A DNA stretch of 64,000 bases from NCBI RefSeq assembly GCF_008180155.1, contig NZ_VSZS01000068.1, positions 124,001-188,000 on the forward strand, in the 5' to 3' direction. Shown here piece by piece: positions 35,328 to 51,001 of the stretch; the stretch's first letter is position 1, and each line of letters starts with the position of its first letter. The stretch comes from Neoaquamicrobium microcysteis (GTDB lineage Bacteria > Pseudomonadota > Alphaproteobacteria > Rhizobiales > Rhizobiaceae). Made by a program: the position numbers and the translations under genes. The notes under the pieces are model-generated. The model made no database searches, was not told the origin of the DNA, and saw only the letters and a list, made by a program, of their open reading frames with translations.

Positions 35328-35665
35328 TGACCTACGCGCAATTGCGCACCGCGCTCGCTCGGATGGAGGAGAGCCTGGCTGAGACCCGGCACAACCTCGC
35401 CCTTGTCGAGCGCCGGCTTTGCGACGGCGCGGAAGCCGAGACCATCAGGCGGCGCCCGAAGTCGCGCTGGTATCATCGCCGGATGAGCCGCTGGACCGGA
35501 GCCGACGAGGCCGAATACCGGCGCATCCTCGATCGTACGTCCAAAGCCGCGCAGGCCGAGCTTGAGCGGCTTCGCCGCAAGGTCGAGCGGCAGAACGGCG
35601 CGATTTTAGCGCTGCGCTGCAAATACCGCATCAACGACGAACGGCCCCGGCAGTACGCCTTGTGA
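35324..35665 (+). CDS. Small conserved-looking protein of unknown function
   Basis: A 113-aa, highly charged, probably helical protein (LARMEESLAETRHNLALVERRL; LDRTSKAAQAELERLRRKVERQNG), consistent with a coiled coil at both ends. The ATG overlaps the ardC stop, so the two are translated together. I do not recognise a family. The reading frame, start overlap and codon use support a real gene. Confidence 0.75.
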   Translation: MMTYAQLRTALARMEESLAETRHNLALVERRLCDGAEAETIRRRPKSRWYHRRMSRWTGADEAEYRRILDRTSKAAQAELERLRRKVERQNGAILALRCKYRINDERPRQYAL

Positions 35666-35736
35666 CCGTTCCGGCCGATGGCTGCGCCGGTGTGTGCCGG
35701 CGCAGCCGAGAGGAAGAGAGGTGCCGGGGTTTCCGT

Positions 35737-35776
35737 GACGGGTTGGAAGCGGAGAGAGAGGCTCTCCGCGCCCGTC
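35737..35776 (+). promoter_or_regulatory. Hairpin leader of the ParB-like gene (leader family A)
   Basis: Outer stem GACGGG (35737-35742) with CCCGTC (35771-35776), inner perfect 8-bp stem GCGGAGAG (35749-35756) with CTCTCCGC (35762-35769) and loop AGAGG, ending 15 nt before the ATG. The inner stem sequence differs from the ardC leader but pairing, loop and spacing are kept (compensatory change). Confidence 0.75.
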
Positions 35777-35790
35777 GTGGAGAAACCACG

Positions 35791-37944
35791 ATGGCAAGAG
35801 CTGCCAGGAAGAAGTCCGCCGCCGTCCCAATGATCGTGTTCTCGCGGGCGCGCGATATTCCGTTCAACCGGATCAGGCTGTCGGACAGCAATGTCCGCGA
35901 GGTCGACGTCGAGGCCGGCCTGGACGAACTCACCTTCGACATCGACCGCCGCGAGGACCTCGTGCAGGGTCTCAATGTCCGTGCCATCCTCGACGCGGAC
36001 GGCAACGAGACCGGCGATTTCGAGACGCCGGCGGGCGGGCGCCGCTACAGGTCGATCGCCCGGCTCGTGAAGGCGGGGCGTTTCCCCGAGGACGGGCTCG
36101 TTCCCTGCATCGTCAAGAAGGCCGACGCCAAGACCTCGGCCGTGGACGACTCGCTCGCAGAGAACGTGCTGCGGCTGGCGCTGCATCCCCTCGATCAGTT
36201 CCGCGCCTTCAAGCGCATGGTCGACGGCGGCATGTCCGAGGCGGAGGTCGCCACCGCCTACTTCACCACCGAGCGCTATGTCGCGCAGCGCCTCGCGCTC
36301 GCCAAGGTCTCGCCGAAGCTGCTGGAGGTCTATGCCGAGAACGGCATGACGCTGGCGCTGCTGGAGACCTTCACCGCGAATCCCGATCATGCCCGTCAGG
36401 AGCAGGTCTGGGATGCCGTGAGGCAGTCGCACTACCGCGAACCCTGGCACGTCCGCCAGATGCTCACCGAGACCAGCGTTCCCGCGTCCGACAAGCGCGC
36501 CATGTTCATCGGCCTCGACGCCTATGTCGCGGCCGGCGGCCCGGTGCTGCCCCGCTACCTGTTCGACGAGGAGGATGGCGGCTGGCTCGACGACGTGCCT
36601 CTGCTCGACAGGCTGGTTGCGGACAAGCTCAGGACCGTCGCCGACGAGGTGGCCTCCGAGGGCTGGAAGTGGATCGCCGTCAGCCTCGACCTCCCGCTCG
36701 GCCACGAGCGGGGCCTTCGCGTGCTCGCCGGCACCTTGCCCGAACTCACGCGGAAGGAGCGCAAGCAGCGCGAGGCGCTGCGCGACGAGTACGACGCCCT
36801 GATGGCCGAGCATGACGGCTGCGACGAGCTGCCCGACGAGATCCACCAGCGGCTCAGCGAGATCGAGGCGGCGCTTGACGCCTTCGAGAACCGCCCGGCC
36901 ATCTATGACCCGGCCGAGATCGCCGGCGCCGGCGCCTTCATCTCGGTCGATTCCGATGGCGATCTTGTCGTCGAACGCGGCTATGTCCGGCCCGAGGACG
37001 AGCCGGCCGCGGCCGTCGACGGCGAAGCGCCGGAGGCCGTAGGCGCCGACGGCGACGGCACGGAGGAGCCGCGAGTCATGCGGACCGTCATCACCATCGG
37101 CGGCGAGCCTGCCGAGCCGGAGGAGGACGAGGAAGACGTCATCCGTCCCCTGTCGGAAAGGCTGGTGGCCGAGCTGACGGCGCATCGCACGCTCGCCCTG
37201 CGCGACGCCGTGGGCGCCAACCCGCAGGTCGCGCTCACGGCGCTGCTGCACAAGCTGGTGCGCGACACGTTCGGGCGCTCCACCACCGGCGCCGCGGTCG
37301 GGGCTTCCGTCCGCGAGGTCTATTTCCGCGAGCAGGGTCCGGACCTCAAGGACAGCCCCTATGCGCAGTCGGTCAAGGAGCGGCACGACGGCTGGAAGGC
37401 GGACCTTCCGTCCGACGACGACGCGCTCTGGGACTGGCTCGCCGCGCTCGACGAGGCCAGCCGCCTGGCGCTGCTCGCCCATTGCGTGAGCTACGGCGTC
37501 AACGCGCTCTACGAGCGGCCGAACCCGATCAGCGCCAGCGGCATCTCGCAGCACGGTCTCGACCTTCGCATGGCCGAGGCCGACCGGCTCGCCCGCACCA
37601 CCGGCCTCGACATGATCGAGGCGGGCTTCCGGCCCACGGTCGAAAACTATCTCGGCCGCGTTCCGAAGACCCGCATCCTCGAAGCCGTCCGCGAGGGCGC
37701 CGGCGATCGCGCGGCCGACCTGATCGCCCATCTGAAGAAGGGCGACATGGCCGAGGAAGCCGAACGGCTGCTCGCTGAAACCGGCTGGCTGCCCGAGCCG
37801 CTGCGGCCGCTCGACGCCGAGCCGGAGCTTGAGGCGGGCACGGAGGGCGATGGCGAGGCGCTTCCCGCCTTCCTCGCCGGTGATGAGGAGGAGGCGGTCG
37901 GCAGCGTTGAGGGCGATCCCGAGCATCTGGTCGCCGCCGAATAG
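35791..37944 (+). CDS. ParB/RepB-like nuclease-domain protein
   Basis: A 717-aa protein. The N-terminal ParB-like domain (residues 20-130: IPFNRIRLSDSNVREVD, AGGRRYRSIARLV, CIVKKADAKTSAVDDSLAENV) is followed by a helix-turn-helix region (MSEAEVATAYFTTERYVAQRLALAKVSP) and a long acidic C-terminal part rich in Glu/Asp. It is twice the size of a plasmid ParB, so it is unlikely to be a simple centromere binder. Such large ParB-fold proteins are common on alphaproteobacterial conjugative elements. The start at 35791 follows its hairpin leader; the frame upstream is not coding. Confidence 0.88.
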   Translation: MARAARKKSAAVPMIVFSRARDIPFNRIRLSDSNVREVDVEAGLDELTFDIDRREDLVQGLNVRAILDADGNETGDFETPAGGRRYRSIARLVKAGRFPEDGLVPCIVKKADAKTSAVDDSLAENVLRLALHPLDQFRAFKRMVDGGMSEAEVATAYFTTERYVAQRLALAKVSPKLLEVYAENGMTLALLETFTANPDHARQEQVWDAVRQSHYREPWHVRQMLTETSVPASDKRAMFIGLDAYVAAGGPVLPRYLFDEEDGGWLDDVPLLDRLVADKLRTVADEVASEGWKWIAVSLDLPLGHERGLRVLAGTLPELTRKERKQREALRDEYDALMAEHDGCDELPDEIHQRLSEIEAALDAFENRPAIYDPAEIAGAGAFISVDSDGDLVVERGYVRPEDEPAAAVDGEAPEAVGADGDGTEEPRVMRTVITIGGEPAEPEEDEEDVIRPLSERLVAELTAHRTLALRDAVGANPQVALTALLHKLVRDTFGRSTTGAAVGASVREVYFREQGPDLKDSPYAQSVKERHDGWKADLPSDDDALWDWLAALDEASRLALLAHCVSYGVNALYERPNPISASGISQHGLDLRMAEADRLARTTGLDMIEAGFRPTVENYLGRVPKTRILEAVREGAGDRAADLIAHLKKGDMAEEAERLLAETGWLPEPLRPLDAEPELEAGTEGDGEALPAFLAGDEEEAVGSVEGDPEHLVAAE

Positions 37945-38558: not shown

Positions 38559-38972
38559 ATGCCCACCTTCACCATCGAGACCGCGCATGACGTGCCGGTC
38601 TACCGTCTTCGCAGCTACGAGGCCGATACCGTCGACAAGGCATGCCGGCTGGCGGTGGACGACGGCGATTGGTCGATCCGCAAGATTTCTCACGACACCC
38701 CCGGCGAAACCTTCGTCAGCGGCATCTGGGAAGGAACCGGCGCTCCCCACTCGGCCCGCAGCCTTCCGGTTCCCTCGCAATATGGCGACACCATGCGCCG
38801 GAAGGCCCGGCATTTCGAGGTGCTGCTCGGCCTTCTCAAGATGTTCGCCGCCGCCGATCCGGCAGCGCCTGAACTCGCGCTCTGGCGGCAACGTGCGGTG
38901 TCCGCAATCGCCAAGGCCGAAGCGATGATGGCCGCCGCCCGCGATCCCAAGGGGAGCGACCGCCATGCCTGA
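38559..38972 (+). CDS. Protein of unknown function
   Basis: A 137-aa soluble protein (PTFTIETAHDVPVYRLRSYEA; DGDWSIRKISHDTPGETFVSG; C-terminal helix LALWRQRAVSAIAKAEAMMAAA). It follows the family-B leader with GGAGG 6-7 nt before the ATG and overlaps the next gene by 8 nt. No domain recognised. Confidence 0.75.
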   Translation: MPTFTIETAHDVPVYRLRSYEADTVDKACRLAVDDGDWSIRKISHDTPGETFVSGIWEGTGAPHSARSLPVPSQYGDTMRRKARHFEVLLGLLKMFAAADPAAPELALWRQRAVSAIAKAEAMMAAARDPKGSDRHA

Positions 38973-39609
38973 GATCGTCGAAACCACCGTCTACCGCCTC
39001 GGTGAGCTGTCCGCGGACGCGAAGGACAGGGCGCGTGCATGGTATCGCGAAGGCGCGTTCGACCATGACTTGCACGAGTTCATCTTCGATGATTTCGAGC
39101 GTGTCTGCGAGATTCTCGGCGTGCGGCTCCGGACCCGCACCGTTCCGCTCTATGGCGGCGGCACCCGTCAGAAGCCGTGCATCTACTTCTCCGGCTTCTG
39201 GAGCCAGGGCGACGGTGCTTGTTTCGAGGGAAGCTACAGCCACGCCAGGGGCGCACCGCGAAAAATCCGCGACCATGCTCCCAAGGATGGCGAGCTTCAC
39301 CGGATCGCCGACGCGCTCCAGGCGATCCAGCGCCGCAACTTCTACCAGCTCCATGCCGGCGTCAGCCATCGCGGCCGCTACTGCCACGAATACTGCATGG
39401 TCATATCGGTGGAACGCGACAGTCCTATCTATCAGGACATGACCGCCGACGCCGAGGACGCCGTGACGGAGGCGCTGCGCGATCTCGCACGCTGGTTCTA
39501 CCGCCAGCTTGAGCGTGAATACGAGTTTCTGTTGTCGGACGAGGTGGTCGACGAGGCCATTGCCGCGAACGAATACACCTTCACCTCATCTGGCCGCCGC
39601 TTCGGCTGA
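38965..39609 (+). CDS. Protein of unknown function, sometimes labelled TA-system antitoxin
   Basis: A 214-aa protein (ETTVYRLGELSADAKDRARAWY; IYFSGFWSQGDGACFEGSY; REYEFLLSDEVVDEAIAANEYTFTSSGRRFG). Similar proteins on mobile elements and phages are labelled antitoxin of a toxin-antitoxin stability system, but no toxin-like partner is adjacent and I cannot support that role. The ATG overlaps the preceding gene. Confidence 0.78.
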   Translation: MPEIVETTVYRLGELSADAKDRARAWYREGAFDHDLHEFIFDDFERVCEILGVRLRTRTVPLYGGGTRQKPCIYFSGFWSQGDGACFEGSYSHARGAPRKIRDHAPKDGELHRIADALQAIQRRNFYQLHAGVSHRGRYCHEYCMVISVERDSPIYQDMTADAEDAVTEALRDLARWFYRQLEREYEFLLSDEVVDEAIAANEYTFTSSGRRFG

Positions 39610-42700: not shown

Positions 42701-44107
42701 ACGGGCCGCAGCTACCACGCCGAACTGTCGGCGCGGAACACACGGCTGCGCGTCCACTATCTCCTCGAACCCGGCTGGAAGGCCGACGCCGCCATCCAGG
42801 GGCTCGGCCGCACGCACCGGACCAATCAGGCGCAGCCGCCCCTGTTCCGGCCGATCGCCACCAACGTCAAGGCCGAGAAGCGGTTTCTCAGCACGATCGC
42901 GCGCCGGCTCGACACGCTGGGCGCGATCACGCGCGGCCAGCGGCAGACCGGCGGTCAGGGCCTGTTCCGCCCGGAGGACAATCTGGAATCGCATTATGCC
43001 CGCGACGCGCTGCGCCAGCTCTACATGCTGATCGTGCGCGGCAAGGTCGAGGGCTGCTCGCTGGGGAAGTTCGAGGCGTCGACCGGCCTAAAGCTGATGG
43101 ATTCGACCGGCATCAAGGACGAGTTGCCGCCGATCACCACCTTCCTCAACCGGCTGCTCGCGCTCACCATCGAGATGCAAGGCATCATCTTCACCGCCTT
43201 CGAGGGGTTGCTGAACGCGCGGATCGAAGGCGCCATCGCGTCGGGCAGCTACGATGCCGGCCTGGAGACGCTGAGCGCCGAGAGCTTCGTCGTCACCGGA
43301 AGGGAGACGATCTACACGCATCCCGGCACCGGCGCCGAGACCCGGCTTCTCACCATCTCCGAGCGCAAGCGCAACCGGCCGGTCACGCTCGATGCCGCGC
43401 TCGACCATCTCCTTGACCCGCGCGCGAAGCTGCTGGTCAACGAACGCTCCGGCCGCGCCGCGGTGCGGGTCCATGCGCCGTCCGTGATGACCGACGATGG
43501 CGATGTCCAGTATCGCGTCCGGCTGATCCGGCCGATGGAGGCTCACACCATCCCGTTCGGTGCGATGGTCGGAAGCCATTGGGTCGAGGCGGACCGAGAC
43601 GCCTTCGCATCGGTCTGGCAGGCAGAGGTGGCGGAGGTGCCGGAGTTCTCGGATTCCACCATCCACATCGTCACCGGCCTGCTGCTGCCGATCTGGCGAC
43701 GCCTGCCCAACGAGTCCTCGCGCGTCTACCGGCTTCAGACCGATGACGGCGAGCGCATCATCGGCCGCAGGGTCTCGCCGGCATGGGCGGCGAACGCGGT
43801 GACGACCGGATCGGTCTCGCTCTCTGCCGACGAGGCGTTCGCGGCGCTGATGGAGGGGAGGACCATCATCGACCTCGACGATGGGCTCCAGCTTCGCCGC
43901 GTCCGCGTCATGGGCGCCCACCGCATCGAGCTGTCGGGCTTCACCGACACGATGCGCGAGCGTCTCTCGGCCTACGGCTTGTTCCACGAGATCATCTCGT
44001 GGAAACTACGCATGTTCGTTCCCACCGACGCGAGCGGGGTCGCGGTGCTGGCGAGGCTGCTCGACCGATGGTCGGTCGAGCGCTTCAGCGAACGGGAGGC
44101 CGCATAA
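39752..44107 (+). CDS. Methyltransferase/Strawberry-notch-type helicase fusion
   Basis: A 1,451-aa cytoplasmic protein. The N-terminal part holds an adenine-methyltransferase-like domain (EPSAGTGLLAIL near 150-161; MNPPFS near 215-220). A long middle follows, then a Strawberry-notch/SNF2-type ATPase with the Walker-A-like GDGTGVGKGRE near 504-514, DECHAL near 611-616 and the C-terminal helicase half with GWKADAAIQGLGRTHRTNQ near 1008-1026. Such proteins are common on conjugative elements; proposed roles are DNA protection or processing during transfer. It is by far the largest gene here. ATAATG overlap with the Toprim gene. Confidence 0.9.
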   Translation: MNMMPATVAANAAAPIPLASEPGTAAAILAAAQLLLPHLERGQRIDAPALRHAMETAFGGSDAAGAWNWKTAYEACEAATVLFLRKFGKALLRKSGSPAASLPLLERIAALMLTHTRRSEEVQSFQQFSTPIPLGLVAATAAAITPADRVLEPSAGTGLLAILAEIAGGTLVLNELAETRASLLSSLFPALSVTRFDAAQIDDHLDLAVTPTVVLMNPPFSVMAHVETRMADAAFRHVASALARLAPGGRLVTITGANFAPDAPEWASAYARLQERGRVVFTAAIDGAVYAKHGTTFPTRLTVIDKQPADDPTVFPASLGIAPDADALMGWVAEHVPARLPVDPAVAVPVAATPAPRTVRGYLARSAKAAPRKPLAEPEGVDLSYEIIDRQDAGSAGITDSIYEEYALQSIRIPGAQPHPTKLVQSAAMASVAPPKPSYRPRLPANIRDLLSDAQLETLIYAGEAHSDYLAGAWTVDETFDVVTAAADDASGSVRFRRGFMIGDGTGVGKGRESASIILDNWMRGRRKALWISKSDKLLEDAQRDWSALGMERLLITPQSRFPQGKPITLPEGILFTTYATLRTDERGEKASRVQQIVDWLGADWDGVVIFDECHALQNAVGGKGERGDAAPSQQGRAGLRLQHALPDARVVYVSATGATTVHNLAYAQRLGLWGGEDFPFSTRAEFVEAIEAGGVAAMEVLARDLRALGLYTARSLSFDGVEYELVEHELTPEQTRIYDAYAGAFAIIHNNLDAAMQAANIIGGGEGGSGTLNKQAKSAARSAFESAKQRFFGHLLTSMKTPTLIRSIERDLEAGHASVVQIVSTGEALMERRLAELPTEEWNDVRVDITPREYVLDYLRHSFPVQLYEPFTDSEGRLSSRPVTRDGQPVESREAVARRDTLIAKLASLPPVPGALDQIVQRFGTDIVAEVTGRSRRIVRRTSNGGHDRLVVETRAGSANLAETAAFMDDQRRVLVFSDAGGTGRSYHAELSARNTRLRVHYLLEPGWKADAAIQGLGRTHRTNQAQPPLFRPIATNVKAEKRFLSTIARRLDTLGAITRGQRQTGGQGLFRPEDNLESHYARDALRQLYMLIVRGKVEGCSLGKFEASTGLKLMDSTGIKDELPPITTFLNRLLALTIEMQGIIFTAFEGLLNARIEGAIASGSYDAGLETLSAESFVVTGRETIYTHPGTGAETRLLTISERKRNRPVTLDAALDHLLDPRAKLLVNERSGRAAVRVHAPSVMTDDGDVQYRVRLIRPMEAHTIPFGAMVGSHWVEADRDAFASVWQAEVAEVPEFSDSTIHIVTGLLLPIWRRLPNESSRVYRLQTDDGERIIGRRVSPAWAANAVTTGSVSLSADEAFAALMEGRTIIDLDDGLQLRRVRVMGAHRIELSGFTDTMRERLSAYGLFHEIISWKLRMFVPTDASGVAVLARLLDRWSVERFSEREAA

Positions 44108-45147
44108 TGCCCCGTCTCGACGCTTCCGAGCTTGCCCGCCGTCTCGGCCTCCATGCCGAGGCGGCTTGCCGCCACTATCTGTCCAACGGACGACGCCAGG
44201 GCAATTACTGGCTGGTCGGGGACGCCCGGAACCTGCCCGGCCGCTCCACCTTCGTCCGGCTGCGCAGCTCGGCCAAGGGACCGCCCGGCCACTGGACCGA
44301 TGCCGCCACCGGCGAGCATGGCGACATGCTCGATATTGTCCGCGAAAGCCTCGGCCTCGTCGACTTCAAGGACATAGCCGACGAGGCGCGACGCTTCCTC
44401 AGCCTGCCTCATCCCGAACCGGACACCGGAACGGCGGCCGGGAAGGCGAGCCGGCGCGCATCCGGCTCGCCCGAAGCGGCACGGCGCCTGTTCGGCATAT
44501 CGAAGCCGATCCGCGGCACGCTCGCGCAAACCTATTTGCGCCGGCGCGGCATCACGGACCTCTCCGGCATCTCCAGCCTACGGTTCCATCCGCGCTGCTA
44601 TTACCGGCCTGACGAGCACAGCCCGAGAAAGACCTTGCCGGCGTTGATCGCCGCCGTCACCGACCTTGACGGCCGGCTTACCGGGGCGCATCGCACCTGG
44701 CTCGCGCCGGACGGATCGGGGAAGGCTGCCGTCGACACGCCGAGGCGGGCGATGGGCGACCTGCTCGGCCACGGCATCCGCTTCGGCGCGTCGGACGATG
44801 TGCTGGCGGCCGGCGAAGGCATCGAGACGGTGCTGTCGCCCCGCATGGTCCTGCCCATGATGCCGATGCTGGCGGCGACCTCGGCCGCCCATCTCGCCGC
44901 GATCCTGTTCCCGGCGACGCTGCGCAGGCTCTACATCCTGCGCGACCGCGATCCGGCCGGCGACGGTGCGCGGGACCGTCTGGTCGAGCGGGCGGCGAGC
45001 GCCGGGATCGAGGCGATCGTGCTGTCGCCACGGCTCGAGGACTTCAACGAGGATCTGCGGCTCCACGGCCCGGAGGCCCTTCGGGCGCAGATGCGGCCTC
45101 AGCTCGTCCATGAGGACGCCAGCCGCTTCATGGCCCTGGCGGCATAG
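44107..45147 (+). CDS. Toprim-domain primase-like protein
   Basis: A 346-aa protein. The N-terminal region (SELARRLGLHAEAACRHYLSNGRRQGNYW; GHWTDAATGEHGDMLDIVRE) resembles the primase zinc-ribbon-replacing domain of plasmid primases. The C-terminal Toprim domain has the glutamate in AGEGIETVLSP near 237-247 and the DxD-like YILRDRDPAGDGA near 278-290. A role in priming plasmid or transferred DNA is likely. Its ATG overlaps the preceding stop. Confidence 0.9.
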   Translation: MPRLDASELARRLGLHAEAACRHYLSNGRRQGNYWLVGDARNLPGRSTFVRLRSSAKGPPGHWTDAATGEHGDMLDIVRESLGLVDFKDIADEARRFLSLPHPEPDTGTAAGKASRRASGSPEAARRLFGISKPIRGTLAQTYLRRRGITDLSGISSLRFHPRCYYRPDEHSPRKTLPALIAAVTDLDGRLTGAHRTWLAPDGSGKAAVDTPRRAMGDLLGHGIRFGASDDVLAAGEGIETVLSPRMVLPMMPMLAATSAAHLAAILFPATLRRLYILRDRDPAGDGARDRLVERAASAGIEAIVLSPRLEDFNEDLRLHGPEALRAQMRPQLVHEDASRFMALAA

Positions 45148-45467
45148 TCGGGATCGGGGATGGAGCAGGCGGCGCGGCCGCCGTCCCCGGTTCGCTTCCG
45201 CGCGGCTCCCGCGATCGTCGGCAGAGACCGCCACCCGGCCTTCCCAGAGGGCGATCGAGCCCACAAACGGCCCGGACAAGCAATGGCGGCGCTCCGGCTA
45301 TCGTCCGCCGGCGGGGCGAGCCCCGCCTTTGCATCGCGAAACAAGATTGCCGGGCTTAGCCATCAAGGCCCTCGCGAGCGAGGGCTGCCAGTCCGGGCCG
45401 CCCGTGGGCTTCCGACGCCATGAAGGCCGCGAGGGTCGCGGTCGGACCGACGAAGGAGACCACGCAG
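45148..45467. other. Non-coding stretch with two perfect hairpins
   Basis: No credible gene. Two perfect 8-bp stems with GA loops are present: GGCGGGGC/GCCCCGCC at 45310-45327 followed by TTT (terminator-like), and GCCCTCGC/GCGAGGGC at 45368-45385. The second lies upstream of the DUF2493 gene. Confidence 0.65.
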
Positions 45468-46409
45468 ATGGGAAGCGAACACGAAGACGGCTTCGAGCCG
45501 CAGCACGCCTCATCCCCAACCGACCGCCTGCTCACCGAACTCCAGCTCTATGGCTGGCGCCCCTTCGAGGACGAGCCCGGTCCGAGGCCGCTGCCCGAGG
45601 GCAGCACGGTGGCCGGAGCCATCGCAGACATCTTCGACGCCCTCATCGCCACGCTTGGCGACACCCGCCTCGAACCCGATCTCGACGACCTGCTCTGGTC
45701 GACCGTCAATCTCTTCCACCGCGCCGTCCAGCGGATCGAGCGCACGCTGGACGACAACGAGCAGTCCCAGCGCCGCCTCCAGCGGGAACAGGACGGCACC
45801 GAGATCAAGGCGGTCGAGCTGGAGCGCCTTACGGCCGAGGGCCAGACCATGATCGAGCGGCGCGACGCCTTCGAGCTGATGCGCGACCAGGCCGCCGAAC
45901 ACTACGAGCGCCACACCGGCTCAAGCTGGCGGCCGCGTTCCGGCTCGATGGTCAACCACCGCAACCTGACCTCGGCGCTGGTCGACAGCCGCGACTTCAT
46001 CTCCGCCCGCCGCAGGGCGGACGCCGAGGTGCTGATCCCGGCAGGCCCGAGGATCGCGGTCTCCGGCGCCAACACCTTCAACGACCACGCTCTCATCTGG
46101 GGCGTGCTCGACAAGGTTCACGCCAAGTATCCGCAGATGGTCCTCCTGCATGGCGGCGCCAGGACCGGCACCGACCTGATCGCCGACAAGTGGGCGGCGA
46201 ACCGCAAGGTGCCGACCGTTCCGTTCCCGCCCGACTTCGCCAAGTATCCGGCGAAGCAGGCGCCCTTCAAGCGCAACGACACCGTGCTCGAAACGCTTCC
46301 GATCGGCGTCATCGTCTTTCCCGGCGGCGGCATCCAGGGCAACCTTGCCGACAAGGCGAGGAAGCTCGGCATCAACGTCTACGATTTCCGCGATCGGGGT
46401 GGCGCTTAG
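45468..46409 (+). CDS. DUF2493 (SLOG-like) protein
   Basis: A 313-aa protein: an N-terminal charged helical part, a ~60-residue coiled-coil-like stretch (IERTLDDNEQSQRRLQREQ, ELERLTAEGQTMIERRD), then a C-terminal DUF2493/YspA-type Rossmann domain (RIAVSGANTFNDHALIWGVLD; LLHGGARTGTDLIADKWA; IGVIVFPGGGIQGNLADKARK). DUF2493 belongs to the SLOG nucleotide-binding superfamily, which includes sensors in anti-phage systems. On conjugative elements its function is unknown. The ATG at 45468 has AAGGAGA upstream. Confidence 0.88.
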   Translation: MGSEHEDGFEPQHASSPTDRLLTELQLYGWRPFEDEPGPRPLPEGSTVAGAIADIFDALIATLGDTRLEPDLDDLLWSTVNLFHRAVQRIERTLDDNEQSQRRLQREQDGTEIKAVELERLTAEGQTMIERRDAFELMRDQAAEHYERHTGSSWRPRSGSMVNHRNLTSALVDSRDFISARRRADAEVLIPAGPRIAVSGANTFNDHALIWGVLDKVHAKYPQMVLLHGGARTGTDLIADKWAANRKVPTVPFPPDFAKYPAKQAPFKRNDTVLETLPIGVIVFPGGGIQGNLADKARKLGINVYDFRDRGGA

Positions 46410-46548
46410 GCGCCGCCGCTTGACGATCGCCAGCAAAAGGAGTCAAATCCGTGCATCCTCGCAGCACCGGCATAGAAGCAAAGTCGCAGGCGGAGCGTAT
46501 CGTCGGACAGCCTGTCGTGATCCTTGGACCGATCATCCGGAGGCTTCC

Positions 46549-46965
46549 ATGACCCTCATCCTGCTTGCCGTCTCGCTGTCGATCGCGCTCACCATGATCG
46601 CATGGCACTTCGCGGTCTACGCCCTCCCGTTCATGGTCGGGCTTGCCGCGTTCCGCTACGTCCATGCGGTCGATGCGGGGATTGCCATGTCCATCGTCGC
46701 CGCGCTCGGCGCTGCCGGCCTTTCCGTTCTGGTCGCCGCCGCCGTCCTCGCCTTCGTGCGGGCACCCCTCCTGCGTCTTCCCGTCCTCGTGCTATTCGCC
46801 GCGCCCGCCGCCCTGGCAGGCTATGCGGTGGTGCATGGCGTCGCGCAGAACGTCATCGAGTCGACGGTTGCGCTAAATCTTCTATGCGGCACCGGCGGCC
46901 TGTTCGTCGGCATCGCCGCGCTGTTGAACATCAGCGCCCACGCCGCCGCCTTCACGCCGCGCTGA
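46549..46965 (+). CDS. Small integral membrane protein
   Basis: A 138-aa protein with four hydrophobic segments (residues 3-30, 44-70, 76-100, 110-132) and almost no soluble part. CGGAGGCTTCC precedes the ATG, the same ribosome-binding sequence as before the gene at 38559. Unknown function; members of this kind accompany DUF2493 genes on conjugative elements. Confidence 0.75.
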   Translation: MTLILLAVSLSIALTMIAWHFAVYALPFMVGLAAFRYVHAVDAGIAMSIVAALGAAGLSVLVAAAVLAFVRAPLLRLPVLVLFAAPAALAGYAVVHGVAQNVIESTVALNLLCGTGGLFVGIAALLNISAHAAAFTPR

Positions 46966-47058
46966 AGCCTTCTATCGCCCCTCCGGGCGGACTTGATCAG
47001 ATCGCTGCCGGGAAATGGTTCACATGGTCGACGCCGATGGGTCACGCGAGCCCGACAC

Positions 47059-48483
47059 TCACGTTTCCAAAGAACGGAGCAGTTCTTCCCGATTCAACTC
47101 AGCCTTCTCGTCAATCAGATCAAGATACCGCTCCACCGCCTTGGCAACGCTTAGCCGAATGTGCCCGAGGTCATCCCACGAGATCGTCCCATTCGGATGG
47201 CCGAGACTGTGCAGATACTCGTCTCTCAACGTGTAACCGCGCTCCAGCCAGTCCGCTTCGTTGTCGTCATCAACGAGACGTCTGTATCTGCGCTTCATCT
47301 TCTCGCGGCCGCGATGTTCCCTGAGCATCAAGGTCGCCTCGATACAGCTTATGTTCACAACGATCTCGTCGATCCCTTCTTCCGAGAGAGCTTTGACGAA
47401 GAAGTGCTTAGTCAGCGGATGTAAGATCGCTCTCTCTGTGCCTCGCTTTGCAAGCACCTTTTGAAGCAACCGCCATCGCTGTTCGAGTGTGTCGAGTTGT
47501 TGTCGGCCAAGCTCGAAAGACTCCGACCGATCGGGAACTTCGATCTCCTCGTCCGGATGACCGATGAGGGTCCAGGTCATAGCCGCCGCGTCGGGCGCGC
47601 GCGGCGCGTCAGCGAACGGATCGTCGGAGAACGAATAGACCCAGGGAACGTCAAACGGTTCCCACGAGCCGTCAATCGACTCCTTGCTAAGACACAAAAG
47701 CAGCACAAATAGCGCGTCCTCCACAGGCGACGGAAACGTCGGCTCGAACACTGGAACCTTGCCGATCTCATCCCATCGCTTGTGAAGCACGCCAAGCCAA
47801 GTGCGTTCCCATAGCGCACCAGCCGGCTCGGACTCGCTCGTGACAAGCCAATAGAACCCATCCAATCTTTCGACGGGAAATTGCTGCCAACGGCCGAAGC
47901 GTTTTAGCGCATCATGCCGCACGCGCCGACCGAGTTCCCCGCGTCTGAGAAGGGCGATCTCGTTCGTCCCGAAACGCACATTCTCGACGCTTTGGTGCGG
48001 CCGCTGACTTGAATCGTCCAGATCGAGGCGATCGAGGGGCGCGTAATGGAATCGCGTCACTTCCTCGACCAAGAAAGCGCGATGCAGCTTCCGTGCTGTG
48101 TCATCGGCAGTTTGCAGGCTGCCTGAATGCCAAGGTGCCTCATTCCAGCGGAAGAAGTTTTCGAGTGCCGTCCGCAGTTCCTTTCGCGATGAATCACCGG
48201 AAGGACGTTTCGAGAGCCGAGAACCGCTCATGTCGGGATAGATCAAAGCGCAATTGCTCTCAAGCAACCGAAATGCTGCCGAGCTATAAGCTTCTTCCTC
48301 CGTTCGGCATGCCGCACGCCAAAGGTCGGCGACAGCCAGCCGTATCGCTTCAGGTGCCTCCTCTGTTTCCTTACCCAAGGTCGTTCCCTCCAGCCACGCC
48401 ATCATCGCACTTTCCGATGAAATCAAAAATGGCCAATCGGCGATGCAAGTGGCCGCTCCCATGACAAAGGGCCTCGACGGCAT
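47059..48483 (-). CDS. Unknown protein with HEPN-like C-terminus; candidate defence gene
   Basis: A 474-aa protein on the strand opposite to its neighbours, with visibly lower GC than the flanking element genes. The first ~350 residues match nothing I recognise (SRLSKRPSGDSSRKELRTALENFF; RRGELGRRVRHDALKRFGRW). The last ~110 resemble ApeA-like HEPN domains: helices around IEATLMLREHRGREKMKRRYRRLV and the R-x4-H motif RDEYLHSLG (R420, H425). The frame opens at 48585 with TTG; ATG 48483, behind GGAG motifs, is the first plausible start, and ATG 48462 is possible. It lies in a typical cargo position between the membrane gene and ssb. Confidence 0.72.
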   Translation of the reverse strand: MPSRPFVMGAATCIADWPFLISSESAMMAWLEGTTLGKETEEAPEAIRLAVADLWRAACRTEEEAYSSAAFRLLESNCALIYPDMSGSRLSKRPSGDSSRKELRTALENFFRWNEAPWHSGSLQTADDTARKLHRAFLVEEVTRFHYAPLDRLDLDDSSQRPHQSVENVRFGTNEIALLRRGELGRRVRHDALKRFGRWQQFPVERLDGFYWLVTSESEPAGALWERTWLGVLHKRWDEIGKVPVFEPTFPSPVEDALFVLLLCLSKESIDGSWEPFDVPWVYSFSDDPFADAPRAPDAAAMTWTLIGHPDEEIEVPDRSESFELGRQQLDTLEQRWRLLQKVLAKRGTERAILHPLTKHFFVKALSEEGIDEIVVNISCIEATLMLREHRGREKMKRRYRRLVDDDNEADWLERGYTLRDEYLHSLGHPNGTISWDDLGHIRLSVAKAVERYLDLIDEKAELNREELLRSLET

Positions 48484-49100
48484 CTCCACCAGCTCTCCGA
48501 ACCTCGCCCATGACGGGCTGGCCGCCGGTATCCGCTCCGTCTTCGCATCGCCGTCTCCGCATCTAGCCGGCGCGGGACGTCCCAATCAGCGTGATCGCGT
48601 CTTTGGTGCTCTCGACGCCTTCCCGGTCGGCCCACCGTGGCGTGGCAGCGCGGCGAGCCGGAGCCATGCTTCATCCCTTCAGGCGCGCACGAGCCGTCAC
48701 CGTTGCCCCGGAGATGGTAACGGCGCCATTCGCCCGGACGCCGGTGCCGGCGCTGTTCCTCATCAGCAATCCGAGATCGGCATGCGCTTGAGACAGGCGC
48801 GGCGATCGCGCTGTTTCCCGAGATGGCGCGGGTAAGAGGCCACGACCGATGGCCGGGCCGGCAAGGAGGAAGGTTCTGCGGTTTCTCCGTGATGCGTTCG
48901 CGGAAGGACATGCCCTCCGACTGACTGATCCCCTACGGCCGAGCGGTTTCCGCCCTCAACCCCCGCGGCTCCGGACCGTGTTGGCGCGAAGCGCCTGCCC
49001 GCCCCACTCCGGGCCTTAAGGGTTGCTGTCGGCTCCCGGCGACCGTGGCCGGGTCTCGTCGGAGGGACGGTCCCTCCGATTGAAGCAACGGAGAACTACC
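48484..49100. other. Non-coding stretch between the candidate defence gene and ssb
   Basis: About 600 nt without a gene I can support. It contains the promoter region of the 47059 gene (minus), a minus-strand frame near 48680-48790 that reads coding-like for ~40 codons but has no start, and the leader hairpin of ssb at its right end. It may be remains of a disrupted gene. Confidence 0.5.
49059..49079 (+). promoter_or_regulatory. Hairpin leader of ssb
   Basis: A perfect 9-bp stem TCGGAGGGA (49059-49067) with TCCCTCCGA (49071-49079), loop CGG, 21 nt before the ssb ATG. It may control translation or mRNA stability; AACGGAGAAC after it supplies the ribosome-binding site. Confidence 0.7.
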
Positions 49101-49502
49101 ATGCAGAACATCGTCATTCTTGCCGGCAACATCGGTCAGGACCCCGAGGGCCGCACCACCATCAACAACACCCGCATCGTCCACTTCACCCTAGCCACCT
49201 CGCGCCCCCGCTACGCGGAAGGCAAGGTTCTGCGGGACAAGGACGGCTACCGGGTCCAGGAGACCGAATGGCACCGCATCACCTGCTTCAACGGCCTCGG
49301 CAAGACGGTCGAGCAGCATTGCCAGAAGGGCATGAAGGTGCTGGTCCGGGGCCGCATCCACTACACGAAGTGGACCGACCGGGAAGGCGTCGAGCGCTAC
49401 AGCACGGAGATCATCGCCGAGACGGTGGACTTCCTGAGCTGGCCGAAGCGGGAGGACGACAGCCGCGGCGCCAACGATCCCGACGACGAGATCCCGTTCT
49501 GA
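49101..49502 (+). CDS. ssb: Single-stranded DNA-binding protein
   Basis: A 133-aa SSB with an OB fold (MQNIVILAGNIGQDPEGR; ETEWHRITCFNGLGKTVEQHCQKGMKVLVRGRIHY) and the acidic C-terminal tip DDEIPF that recruits partner proteins. Shorter linker than chromosomal SSBs, as usual for mobile-element copies. It protects single-stranded DNA during transfer and replication. Followed by a clear terminator. Confidence 0.95.
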   Translation: MQNIVILAGNIGQDPEGRTTINNTRIVHFTLATSRPRYAEGKVLRDKDGYRVQETEWHRITCFNGLGKTVEQHCQKGMKVLVRGRIHYTKWTDREGVERYSTEIIAETVDFLSWPKREDDSRGANDPDDEIPF

Positions 49503-49517
49503 AAGGAGGTGTCGAGA

Positions 49518-49541
49518 GCCCGGCGGCGAAAGCCGCCGGGC
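49518..49541 (+). terminator. Terminator after ssb
   Basis: A perfect 10-bp stem (GCCCGGCGGC with GCCGCCGGGC) closed by a GAAA tetraloop and followed by CTTCTTC, 15 nt after the ssb stop. The sequence from here to 49921 contains no gene I can support. Confidence 0.88.
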
Positions 49542-49921
49542 CTTCTTCATGTTCGCGGCCAGAAACTTCGCGACCCGGCTTCGAGCCTTCCCGCAACGCT
49601 CACTCGACGTCTCGCCCTGTCTGGGCCGAGCATATCCGCCGCCGATCCTCTGCCAGGTGGCGGGCAGGCATCGACGGCGTGCCACCCGCGCGCACGCCCG
49701 AGCGTGGCATTGACGCGAGGCCGAACCTACCGGCGCATCCGGGCGAGGACGTGCAGCTCCGTGGGGAGGAATGCCACCCCGCTCTTTGAGGCTTACCTTC
49801 GTTCCAGTCGCGGCCTTCCACGATCAACCCCAAGGGGTCGGACTATGCACGGCATGCCGCCGCCGGAGGCTTCGCCCCGGCGGTGATCGCGGCCGCGGCC
49901 GAAACCCATCGGGCGCCTGTC

Positions 49922-49942
49922 GAGCGGGGATGGCCCCCGCTC
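49922..49942 (+). promoter_or_regulatory. Hairpin leader of the 55-aa gene
   Basis: A perfect 8-bp stem GAGCGGGG (49922-49929) with CCCCGCTC (49935-49942), loop ATGGC, 19 nt before the ATG at 49962; AGGAG lies between. Same placement as the leaders at 34312, 35737, 37988, 38517 and 49059. Confidence 0.7.
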
Positions 49943-49961
49943 CAGATCAGGAGCCGCAGCA

Positions 49962-50129
49962 ATGTCCCTTCCAGACGCACAAGCCTTCGCCTTCAGCCTC
50001 GCCGCCACCCTGCTGGTCACGATCGTCATCTTTCGCGCCGGCGACGGCACGGTCGGCGCCATGCCCGCCGCCGAATATGACGGCGACGACGAAGCCATCA
50101 TCCGCGAGATCGACCCGTTCGCCCCTTGA
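49962..50129 (+). CDS. Very small single-pass membrane protein
   Basis: A 55-aa protein: MSLPDAQAFAFSLAATLLVT at the start gives one membrane helix (residues 7-24), followed by a short acidic tail ending EIDPFAP. It has AGGAG 8 nt before the ATG and its own hairpin leader, which argues for a real gene despite the size. The stop lies inside the loop of the hairpin at 50117-50137. Unknown function. Confidence 0.6.
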   Translation: MSLPDAQAFAFSLAATLLVTIVIFRAGDGTVGAMPAAEYDGDDEAIIREIDPFAP

Positions 50130-50137
50130 GGGCGAAC
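50117..50137. terminator. Bidirectional terminator-like hairpin between convergent genes
   Basis: A perfect 8-bp stem GTTCGCCC (50117-50124) with GGGCGAAC (50130-50137); the loop CTTGA holds the TGA stop of the 55-aa gene. It lies next to the XRE stop at 50139, so it separates the two convergent genes. Confidence 0.65.
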
Positions 50138-50138
50138 G

Positions 50139-50354
50139 TCAGGGTCTCGACACGCGGATCAGCTCGCAGGGGTCGACGTCGAGCGCGTCCGCCACCTTTC
50201 CGAGAATGCTCACGCTCGCCGAAACCTTGCCGCGTTCGATCGAGCCGATATAGCGAGCGCTCAGCCCGGAGCGCTCGGCCACTTCTTCTTGCGTCATATC
50301 CTTGTCATGGCGCAGCCGACGCATGTTGATCGCCATGACCTCTTTGAGGTCCAT
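50139..50354 (-). CDS. XRE-family transcriptional regulator
   Basis: A 71-aa Cro/CI-type helix-turn-helix protein (INMRRLRHDKDMTQEEVAERSGLSARYIGSIERGK, residues 9-43), no sensor domain. It is the only minus-strand regulator in this part of the element and faces the DUF2285 and repA genes across a 228-nt gap with a tandem operator. It is a good candidate for the master repressor of the element's replication/transfer genes. Confidence 0.93.
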   Translation of the reverse strand: MDLKEVMAINMRRLRHDKDMTQEEVAERSGLSARYIGSIERGKVSASVSILGKVADALDVDPCELIRVSRP

Positions 50355-50374
50355 GACGCATCGGAACCAGAACC

Positions 50375-50402
50375 GGAATTATCGTTCTAGGAATGATCGT
50401 TC
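50375..50402. promoter_or_regulatory. Tandem operator upstream of the XRE gene
   Basis: Two 13-nt copies, GGAATTATCGTTC (50375-50387) and GGAATGATCGTTC (50390-50402), with a 15-nt period. Each with its next base is a near-palindrome (GGAA-N6-TTCC in the second). They begin 20 nt upstream of the XRE start codon in the divergent region, the expected position for autoregulation. The rest of 50355-50582 is AT-richer and probably holds promoters for both directions. Confidence 0.7.
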
Positions 50403-50582
50403 CGATTCGGTATGGTCGACCACATGCGCTGAGATCAAGTGCGTCGCAGCCCGTCGACTTTCTGTCGAATCGCGGAATGGAAGCATTCCGAGAATCTTCG
50501 ATGCCAGTCGCGGAACTTCTATTGCACCTCAAAGCGATGACGTATTTGTGAACTACATGCGCGAGGAAGTAAGGACACTACG

Positions 50583-50846
50583 ATGAGCAAATCTCCCTTC
50601 AAGGACAGCCCTCCGCTGACCGACAGGGTGAATGCCTATGACGAAGCCAACCTCGCAACCTATCTGCGCCTGCTCGACGCTGCCGCCGAGGGCGAGGACT
50701 GGCGGGAAGTCGCGAAGATCGTGTTCGGCCTCGACGTCGACGCCGATCCCGAACGCGCGAAGCGGATGCACGACACCCATCTCGCCCGCGCCCGCTGGAT
50801 GACCGAGAAGGGCTACAAGCACCTGCTGGAACCGCGCATGCAATGA
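50583..50846 (+). CDS. DUF2285-type small regulator
   Basis: An 87-aa protein whose second half is the typical DUF2285 end: LLDAAAEGEDWREVAKIVFGLDV and RAKRMHDTHLARARWMTEKGYKHLL. Proteins of this kind lie beside XRE and repA genes on conjugative elements of alphaproteobacteria and are thought to bind DNA. GGAAG-type site precedes the ATG. Confidence 0.85.
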   Translation: MSKSPFKDSPPLTDRVNAYDEANLATYLRLLDAAAEGEDWREVAKIVFGLDVDADPERAKRMHDTHLARARWMTEKGYKHLLEPRMQ

Positions 50847-51001
50847 TGGGCGGCGCATCACCGCATCGCCGACGACAGCGCGACCCCGGATTGCTCGCCA
50901 CGGTCGAGATTTCCATTCCGATTTTCCATCTTCACGCGAGGTCGACCCCGCCAATACTCGAATCATCCCGATGGCAAAGACCGGGCGGGGAGGATTTCGT
51001 C

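Follow-up and report, generated by a model that had tools for sequence, protein, structure and literature searches.

In the window (the whole 64,000-nt stretch of DNA analyzed), the gene under study is located on the minus strand amid plus-strand backbone genes. To its left lie a gene for a DUF2493/YspA SLOG protein (45420-46409, plus strand; PF10686, E = 5.6e-26), which was matched in 28 of 100 related genomes, and a gene for a small protein that by eye is of membrane type (46551-46965, plus strand). To its right lies an SSB gene (49101-49502, plus strand; PF00436, E = 8.5e-29). This agrees with the first-pass annotation, which had described an opposite-strand gene among element genes. The small membrane-type gene was kept in L057, L066, and L072, was conserved alongside the slot in several elements, and gave no match in the Pfam search. 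Other neighbors with Pfam matches were a strawberry-notch-type helicase, a Toprim protein, RepA, a DNA methylase, and a TraG-type coupling protein; 3 of the 10 neighbors tested had no match (35662-37944, 38965-39609, and the small membrane-type gene).

The gene was originally delimited as an open frame at 47059-48483 (minus strand) encoding 474 aa, to which all residue numbers given here refer; R420 and H425 fall in the motif RDEYLHSLG of this translation, as had been stated. A TTG at 48585 could also open the frame and would give 508 aa. About 11 residues at the N-terminus of the 474-aa version are probably non-coding, because the DNA from 48451 onward is homologous (blastn) to that of an element without the gene (L057). 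Since this DNA is element backbone, M27 at 48405 is probably the start rather than 48483, which gives an open frame at 47059-48405 (minus strand) and a protein of 448 aa. By eye, GGAAAG stands immediately upstream of ATGATG at 48405. Relatives start mostly at residues 35-47; the L002 frame opens at residue 21, and L015, L078, and the broken L011 start later than residues 35-47.

The DNA between the flanking homologies, 46966-48450 (1485 bp by the alignment edges; blastn with L057), was treated as the content of a cargo slot, with the small membrane-type gene at its left edge. Slots were compared across 21 loci, including two copies of the window stretch (L001, 100%; L003, 99.98%); the slot was unreadable in 12 of the 21, in which the DUF2493 gene was present and the SSB match was absent from the fetched stretch. 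Among the seven comparable elements, three held a family member, one held other cargo, and three had no insert of such size. The slots of the window and L002 both hold the window-family gene. In L057, which belongs to the same genus and has flanks 90.6% and 93.0% identical to those of the window element, homology ends at 46965 and restarts at 48451, with 2391 bp of other DNA between these points. In L059, L065, and L066, the flanking homologies are 410-459 bp apart vs. about 1.9 kb in the window. The slot of L072, from another family of the order, holds a relative of 434 aa with 29% identity, oriented with the backbone and thus opposite to the window copy. On this comparison (window, L002, L072, L057, L059, L065, and L066), the slot is a variable cargo site, which two divergent family members entered in opposite orientations. 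Both the proposed cargo-site position and the suggested variability of the site among related elements were therefore borne out, 46966-48450 being replaced by other DNA in the same-genus element and an insert of such size being absent from L059, L065, and L066.

The alternative cargo of L057 (L057:3028-5418) consists of two ORFs of about 180-200 aa, neither with a match in the Pfam search, and by eye repeated stretches surround them. A transposase-like gene (by eye) lies to the left of the membrane gene in L066. In L004, from a Rhodovibrionaceae bin, a copy with 64% identity directly adjoins the DUF2493 gene; the membrane and SSB genes had no match there, and the arrangement is unlike that of the window.

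The GC content of 47059-48405 was 57.2%, lower, as had been noted, than on either side (68.8% for 44000-46965 and 64.9% for 48451-51000; 64.7% for the whole window). Of 627 windows of 1347 nt, 1.9% had a GC content as low as this. Purifying selection acts on the gene: the comparison with L002 (Aliihoeflea sp. 2WW; 81% identical) gave dN = 0.095 and dS = 0.491 over 448 codons, a dN/dS of about 0.2. The comparison with L004 (64% identical) gave dN = 0.26 and dS = 2.4, close to saturation, and dS was incalculable for L002 vs. L004.

Relatives of the gene are sparse. They were found in 2 of 100 close genomes, the window's own included, in 1 of 385 class-level genomes (its own genome), and, by a profile search, in 5 of 397 order-level genomes, with a full-length copy in two (its own and G633). 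Four loci were matched in genome_contigs, two being copies of the window. Three queries matched 25, 31, and 32 of 72,556 plasmids, partial matches counted, and 20 of the 25 matched plasmids were typed as conjugative. One sequence, at ≥99% identity, is carried by 11 Agrobacterium plasmid records, including NC_002377.1 (plasmid Ti). No relative was confirmed in viral contigs, which were scanned by a few peptide patterns each, and no match to the window family was found in phage records; therefore, these collections do not link the gene to phages or prophages. Among the matches listed in the literature search, no paper was tied to the window family.

An alignment of 18 members showed a median pairwise identity of 30% (range 22-82%) and 21 invariant columns, its rows being non-independent (window, L002, and L004 form one clade; L012, L015, L016, and L017 form another). 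Copies and twins (L001, L003, L005, L013, L019, L020, and L084), L082, and fragments or weak matches (L021, L022, L079, L083, and L086-L090) were omitted. L086 and L087, weak domain-search matches from 299 genomes, were rejected by eye. L088:1276-2022 (minus strand) encodes a 248-aa protein with a weak profile match (E = 0.004) and YSGYVHG, a look-alike of the motif without arginine. In L079:8637-10414 (Rhizobium leguminosarum pPR4), a family member is seemingly cut by an IS3-family transposase gene.

The first-pass annotation had called the N-terminal region unrecognised, and this description stood: Pfam, PADLOC, NCBIfam, and PDB sequence searches gave no convincing match to the N-terminal ~330 residues. 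The region (residues 27-330; 47494-48405, minus strand) may act as a sensor. Its conservation peaks at about residues 195-317, and W212, L213, R227, G241, P280, W281, D288, and F290 are invariant. Pfam, PADLOC, and NCBIfam contained no model fitting the window protein or its relatives, nor did PHROGs, and none of 15 family members matched any of the 5027 models of PADLOC-DB 2.0.0 at E ≤ 1. The sole Pfam row, DNAPolymera_Pol (E = 0.12), was put down to chance, as were the matches to PDB sequences (designed barrels, talin, UBR1, uL16, and an Sm-domain protein).

The C-terminal domain (residues 331-474; 47062-47493, minus strand) very probably belongs to the HEPN type, judging from its invariant residues and its profile alignment to ApeA-type HEPN domains. 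Nine of its residues were invariant in the 18 rows (H360, D372, I381, R399, R420, H425, G428, R443, and L469). The single Rx4H motif of the protein is the conserved one, and its predicted catalytic residues, R420 (codon 47224-47226, minus strand) and H425 (codon 47209-47211, minus strand), were kept in 18 of 18 members. One Rx4H alone is at chance level, shuffled copies of the window protein containing 1.25 on average; the motif exceeds chance because both residues are kept in all 18 members at a median identity of 30%. When the letters of the invariant columns were shuffled, R and H occurred at such spacing in 1.8% of trials. R is followed by D in the window clade and by S in the remaining members, fitting the polar residue described for HEPN domains in PMC3710099.

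The profile relationship to the ApeA HEPN domain offers weak support, with hhalign probabilities ranging from 0.5% to 37%. Against seven PF18739 members, the C-terminal domain aligned on the HEPN motifs (score 21.4, P = 0.018, probability 2.5%). Of 200 profiles with shuffled columns, 198 scored ≤19.1; the other two exceeded the real score (131 and 133), but through artefactual alignments spanning 5 and 9 columns at the extreme end of the shuffled profile. The full-length family aligned with five ApeA-type proteins over 70 columns, in the HEPN part only (P = 0.012). A bridging protein of 453 aa (L023) was found by the family profile (E = 4.9e-4) and reached E = 0.16 against PF18739, below the family cut-off; its Vibrio relatives are annotated as HEPN domain proteins, and the one tested matched no Pfam model at E ≤ 1. 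When L023 and L091 were added to the family, the alignment to the five ApeA-type proteins extended to 106 columns over the HEPN domain (score 34.3, P = 0.002), a score reached by none of 60 shuffles (best 21.0); L023 and L091 alone gave a non-significant alignment (P = 0.12). Pfam HEPN models did not match the family. A structure model of the full protein, for which three relatives were used, had a pLDDT of 34, and a model of the domain was all helical and poor (pLDDT 60). Fold searches with these low-pLDDT models returned no HEPN-named protein and listed ferritins and helical repeats at non-significant scores. The HEPN-like domain with Rx4H that had been proposed thus finds its support in the conservation across 18 members and in the HEPN register of these weak profile alignments.

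A same-strand upstream gene, overlapping or within 75 bp, was seen by eye at 8 of the 17 loci of alignment A6. By eye, the partner was a candidate PD-(D/E)xK protein in L006, L007, and L008, a TIR protein in L014, a small Rx4H protein in L018 (RNTLAH) and L072 (RNDLVH), a small protein without the full motif in L010, and the product of a gene annotated as ATP-binding in L009. No upstream partner gene was seen for the window, L002, or L004. A 162-aa frame (48423-48911, minus strand) ends just upstream of 48405, within backbone DNA; L002 agrees with it in the first ~20 residues only, and it is not kept as a protein there. In L004, no same-strand frame of ≥100 aa was found just upstream. A fixed two-gene system was rejected because the window, L002, and L004 are without a partner and partners vary elsewhere. 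The initial proposal of a single-gene protein consequently held for these three copies and failed for the eight A6 loci with a tightly linked upstream gene.

The RNDLVH protein of L072 (L072:11046-11519, minus strand; 158 aa) shares the slot with the family member, being encoded directly upstream of it, and gave no match in the Pfam search. In L014:6538-8987 (NC_002377.1, Agrobacterium tumefaciens plasmid Ti), a full-length member overlaps the end of the TIR-domain gene by 4 bp. The candidate PD-(D/E)xK protein, which is very conserved, ~200 aa long, and marked by GDVVA...ECKGG, had no Pfam match in the two copies tested. This candidate nuclease is encoded at L006:2679-3314 (minus strand), L007:7367-7969, L008:7373-7969, L018:5734-6333 (minus strand), L080:6001-6612, L081:6001-6612, and L079:8001-8603, with 64-82% identity to the first (L006). 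The motif was kept in six of seven relatives, L080 being without the lysine, and in several loci this candidate nuclease adjoins the window family, a HEPN gene, or TrlF.

The plasmid relatives are found in defense-rich neighborhoods. A long member was present at 11 distinct annotated plasmid loci (L007-L010, L012, L014-L018, and L078), and by product names 9 of these loci had defense-type genes within about 8 kb: a HEPN/Toprim-associated protein (L008), ABC-three-component and AbiE genes (L009), a reverse transcriptase and an S8 peptidase (L010), an S-4TM effector (L012, product name given in its twin L013), TIR, ABC-three-component, and type I restriction genes (L014), a retron-type HNH gene (L015), a restriction endonuclease and TrlF (L016), TrlF (L018), and HNH and restriction endonuclease genes (L078). 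L007 and L017 had none by product name. A partial match in L083 was surrounded by metabolic and secretion genes.

At a threshold of E ≤ 1e-5, 383 PADLOC families were matched in 118 neighbor proteins of nine plasmid loci vs. 17 in 142 control proteins, a count of families rather than proteins in which 383 is inflated by overlapping ATPase models. When single PADLOC families were considered, the best were matched by 6 of 118 neighbors vs. 2 of 142 controls. Control proteins were taken from 17 kb of DNA lying about half a replicon from the locus on each of nine plasmids (all except L014 and L016). Edge-cut CDS, family members, two short L015 CDS, and one L094 control CDS with a length not a multiple of three were excluded. 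The suggestion that homologs might lie in defense islands is supported by the defense-rich surroundings of the plasmid relatives. The tested neighbors of the window copy were replication and transfer genes, with no defense gene beside it.

We consider it likely (probability roughly 0.65) that the gene encodes a stand-alone defense effector with a C-terminal HEPN RNase, carried as cargo of an integrated conjugative element and acting by abortive infection. We infer that residues 331-474 would form a HEPN ribonuclease that as a dimer cuts RNA without metal through R420 and H425, and that the N-terminal ~300 residues would hold the protein inactive until they sense an invader, either some component of a phage or a plasmid or element in competition. 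RNA degradation by the activated HEPN domain would then stop growth and block the invader. Defense against invaders of any kind is about as probable as this reading as a whole; defense against phages in particular is less so.

A wider and more tentative proposal, which we hold to be somewhat doubtful as it stands, is that the window gene represents the single-gene branch of an undescribed modular immune family in which one conserved N-terminal sensor is fused to a HEPN RNase. Plasmid members would be encoded directly downstream of interchangeable first genes (for a TIR protein, a candidate PD-(D/E)xK nuclease, or a second, small HEPN-like protein), and conjugative elements would have taken up the gene at least two times, in opposite orientations, in one slot.

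The protein could instead be a HEPN toxin that serves the element through addiction or the exclusion of competing elements, phages not being the main target. Carriage by a conjugative element, the conjugative typing of most matched plasmids (20 of 25), and the existence of HEPN toxins with antidotes (HEPN/MNT; PMC7641770 and PMC4621449) are consistent with this. However, no partner gene was seen beside the window copy or L004, partner genes vary between loci where they occur, and anti-phage models abound around the plasmid relatives, so we regard such a role as unlikely.

Less probable still is a HEPN protein that binds RNA for the element in a regulatory or non-catalytic capacity, for example to tune the expression of transfer genes. 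The gene is embedded among backbone genes, and some HEPN domains without the motif are thought to be non-catalytic, according to PMC3710099. Both predicted catalytic residues are nevertheless kept in every aligned member, and the gene is absent or replaced in otherwise similar elements. The gene also faces different ways relative to the backbone in the window and in L072, and so stands outside the backbone operon. Equally improbable is a helical domain unrelated to HEPN whose conserved R and H are structural or serve other chemistry: the unmatched Pfam HEPN models, low profile probabilities, and fold-search results agree with it, but the invariance of R and H, spaced as in HEPN domains and lying in the C-terminal domain, the register and extent of the ApeA-type alignments, which exceed those of shuffles (two artefacts aside), and the bridge that L023 forms between the family and PF18739 argue against it.

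HEPN domains are well known as defense RNases. A HEPN effector is therefore unsurprising in itself, and the novelty lies in the sensor-like N-terminus and in the varying upstream partners. If the reading as a defense effector is correct, the anti-phage repertoire of Proteobacteria, including that of Agrobacterium plasmids, would gain a HEPN effector family that is as yet unnamed and brings a new N-terminal module, and a conjugative-element slot would be named in which defense genes can be sought.

Among known systems, ApeA (HEPN_Apea, PF18739; ApeA-NTD1) resembles the window protein in its similar size, its large N-terminal region, its C-terminal HEPN-type Rx4H domain, to which the profile alignment extends, and its occurrence as a single gene, as in the window. 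However, none of 15 members matched PF18739 at E ≤ 1, nor did three further members, and the N-terminus of the window family does not align with the collected ApeA-type N-termini; ApeA-NTD1 is described in PMC3710099 as built mainly of beta strands and as having several conserved aromatic residues. The ApeA-like membership suggested in the first-pass annotation was therefore dropped, the profile alignment being limited to the HEPN part. HEPN systems with a partner gene (HEPN/MNT, or HEPN with restriction genes) are similar in that 8 of 17 A6 loci have an upstream gene, but no MNT partner was noticed and the window copy is without a partner. Tha, from Staphylococcus prophages, is likened here by its description: according to PMC11087260, it is one gene with an N-terminus without discernible domain and a C-terminal HEPN RNase with Rx4H, it is activated by phage tail proteins and causes non-specific RNA decay, and its histidine is required for activity. 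It shares with the window gene the single-gene form, the unrecognised N-terminus, the C-terminal HEPN-type Rx4H, and carriage on a mobile element, but differs in length (301 aa for Tha-1 in that text vs. 448 aa for the window protein). Tha offers a close working example of the proposed abortive-infection design. The best reading is a design like that of ApeA or Tha, with the protein placed in neither.
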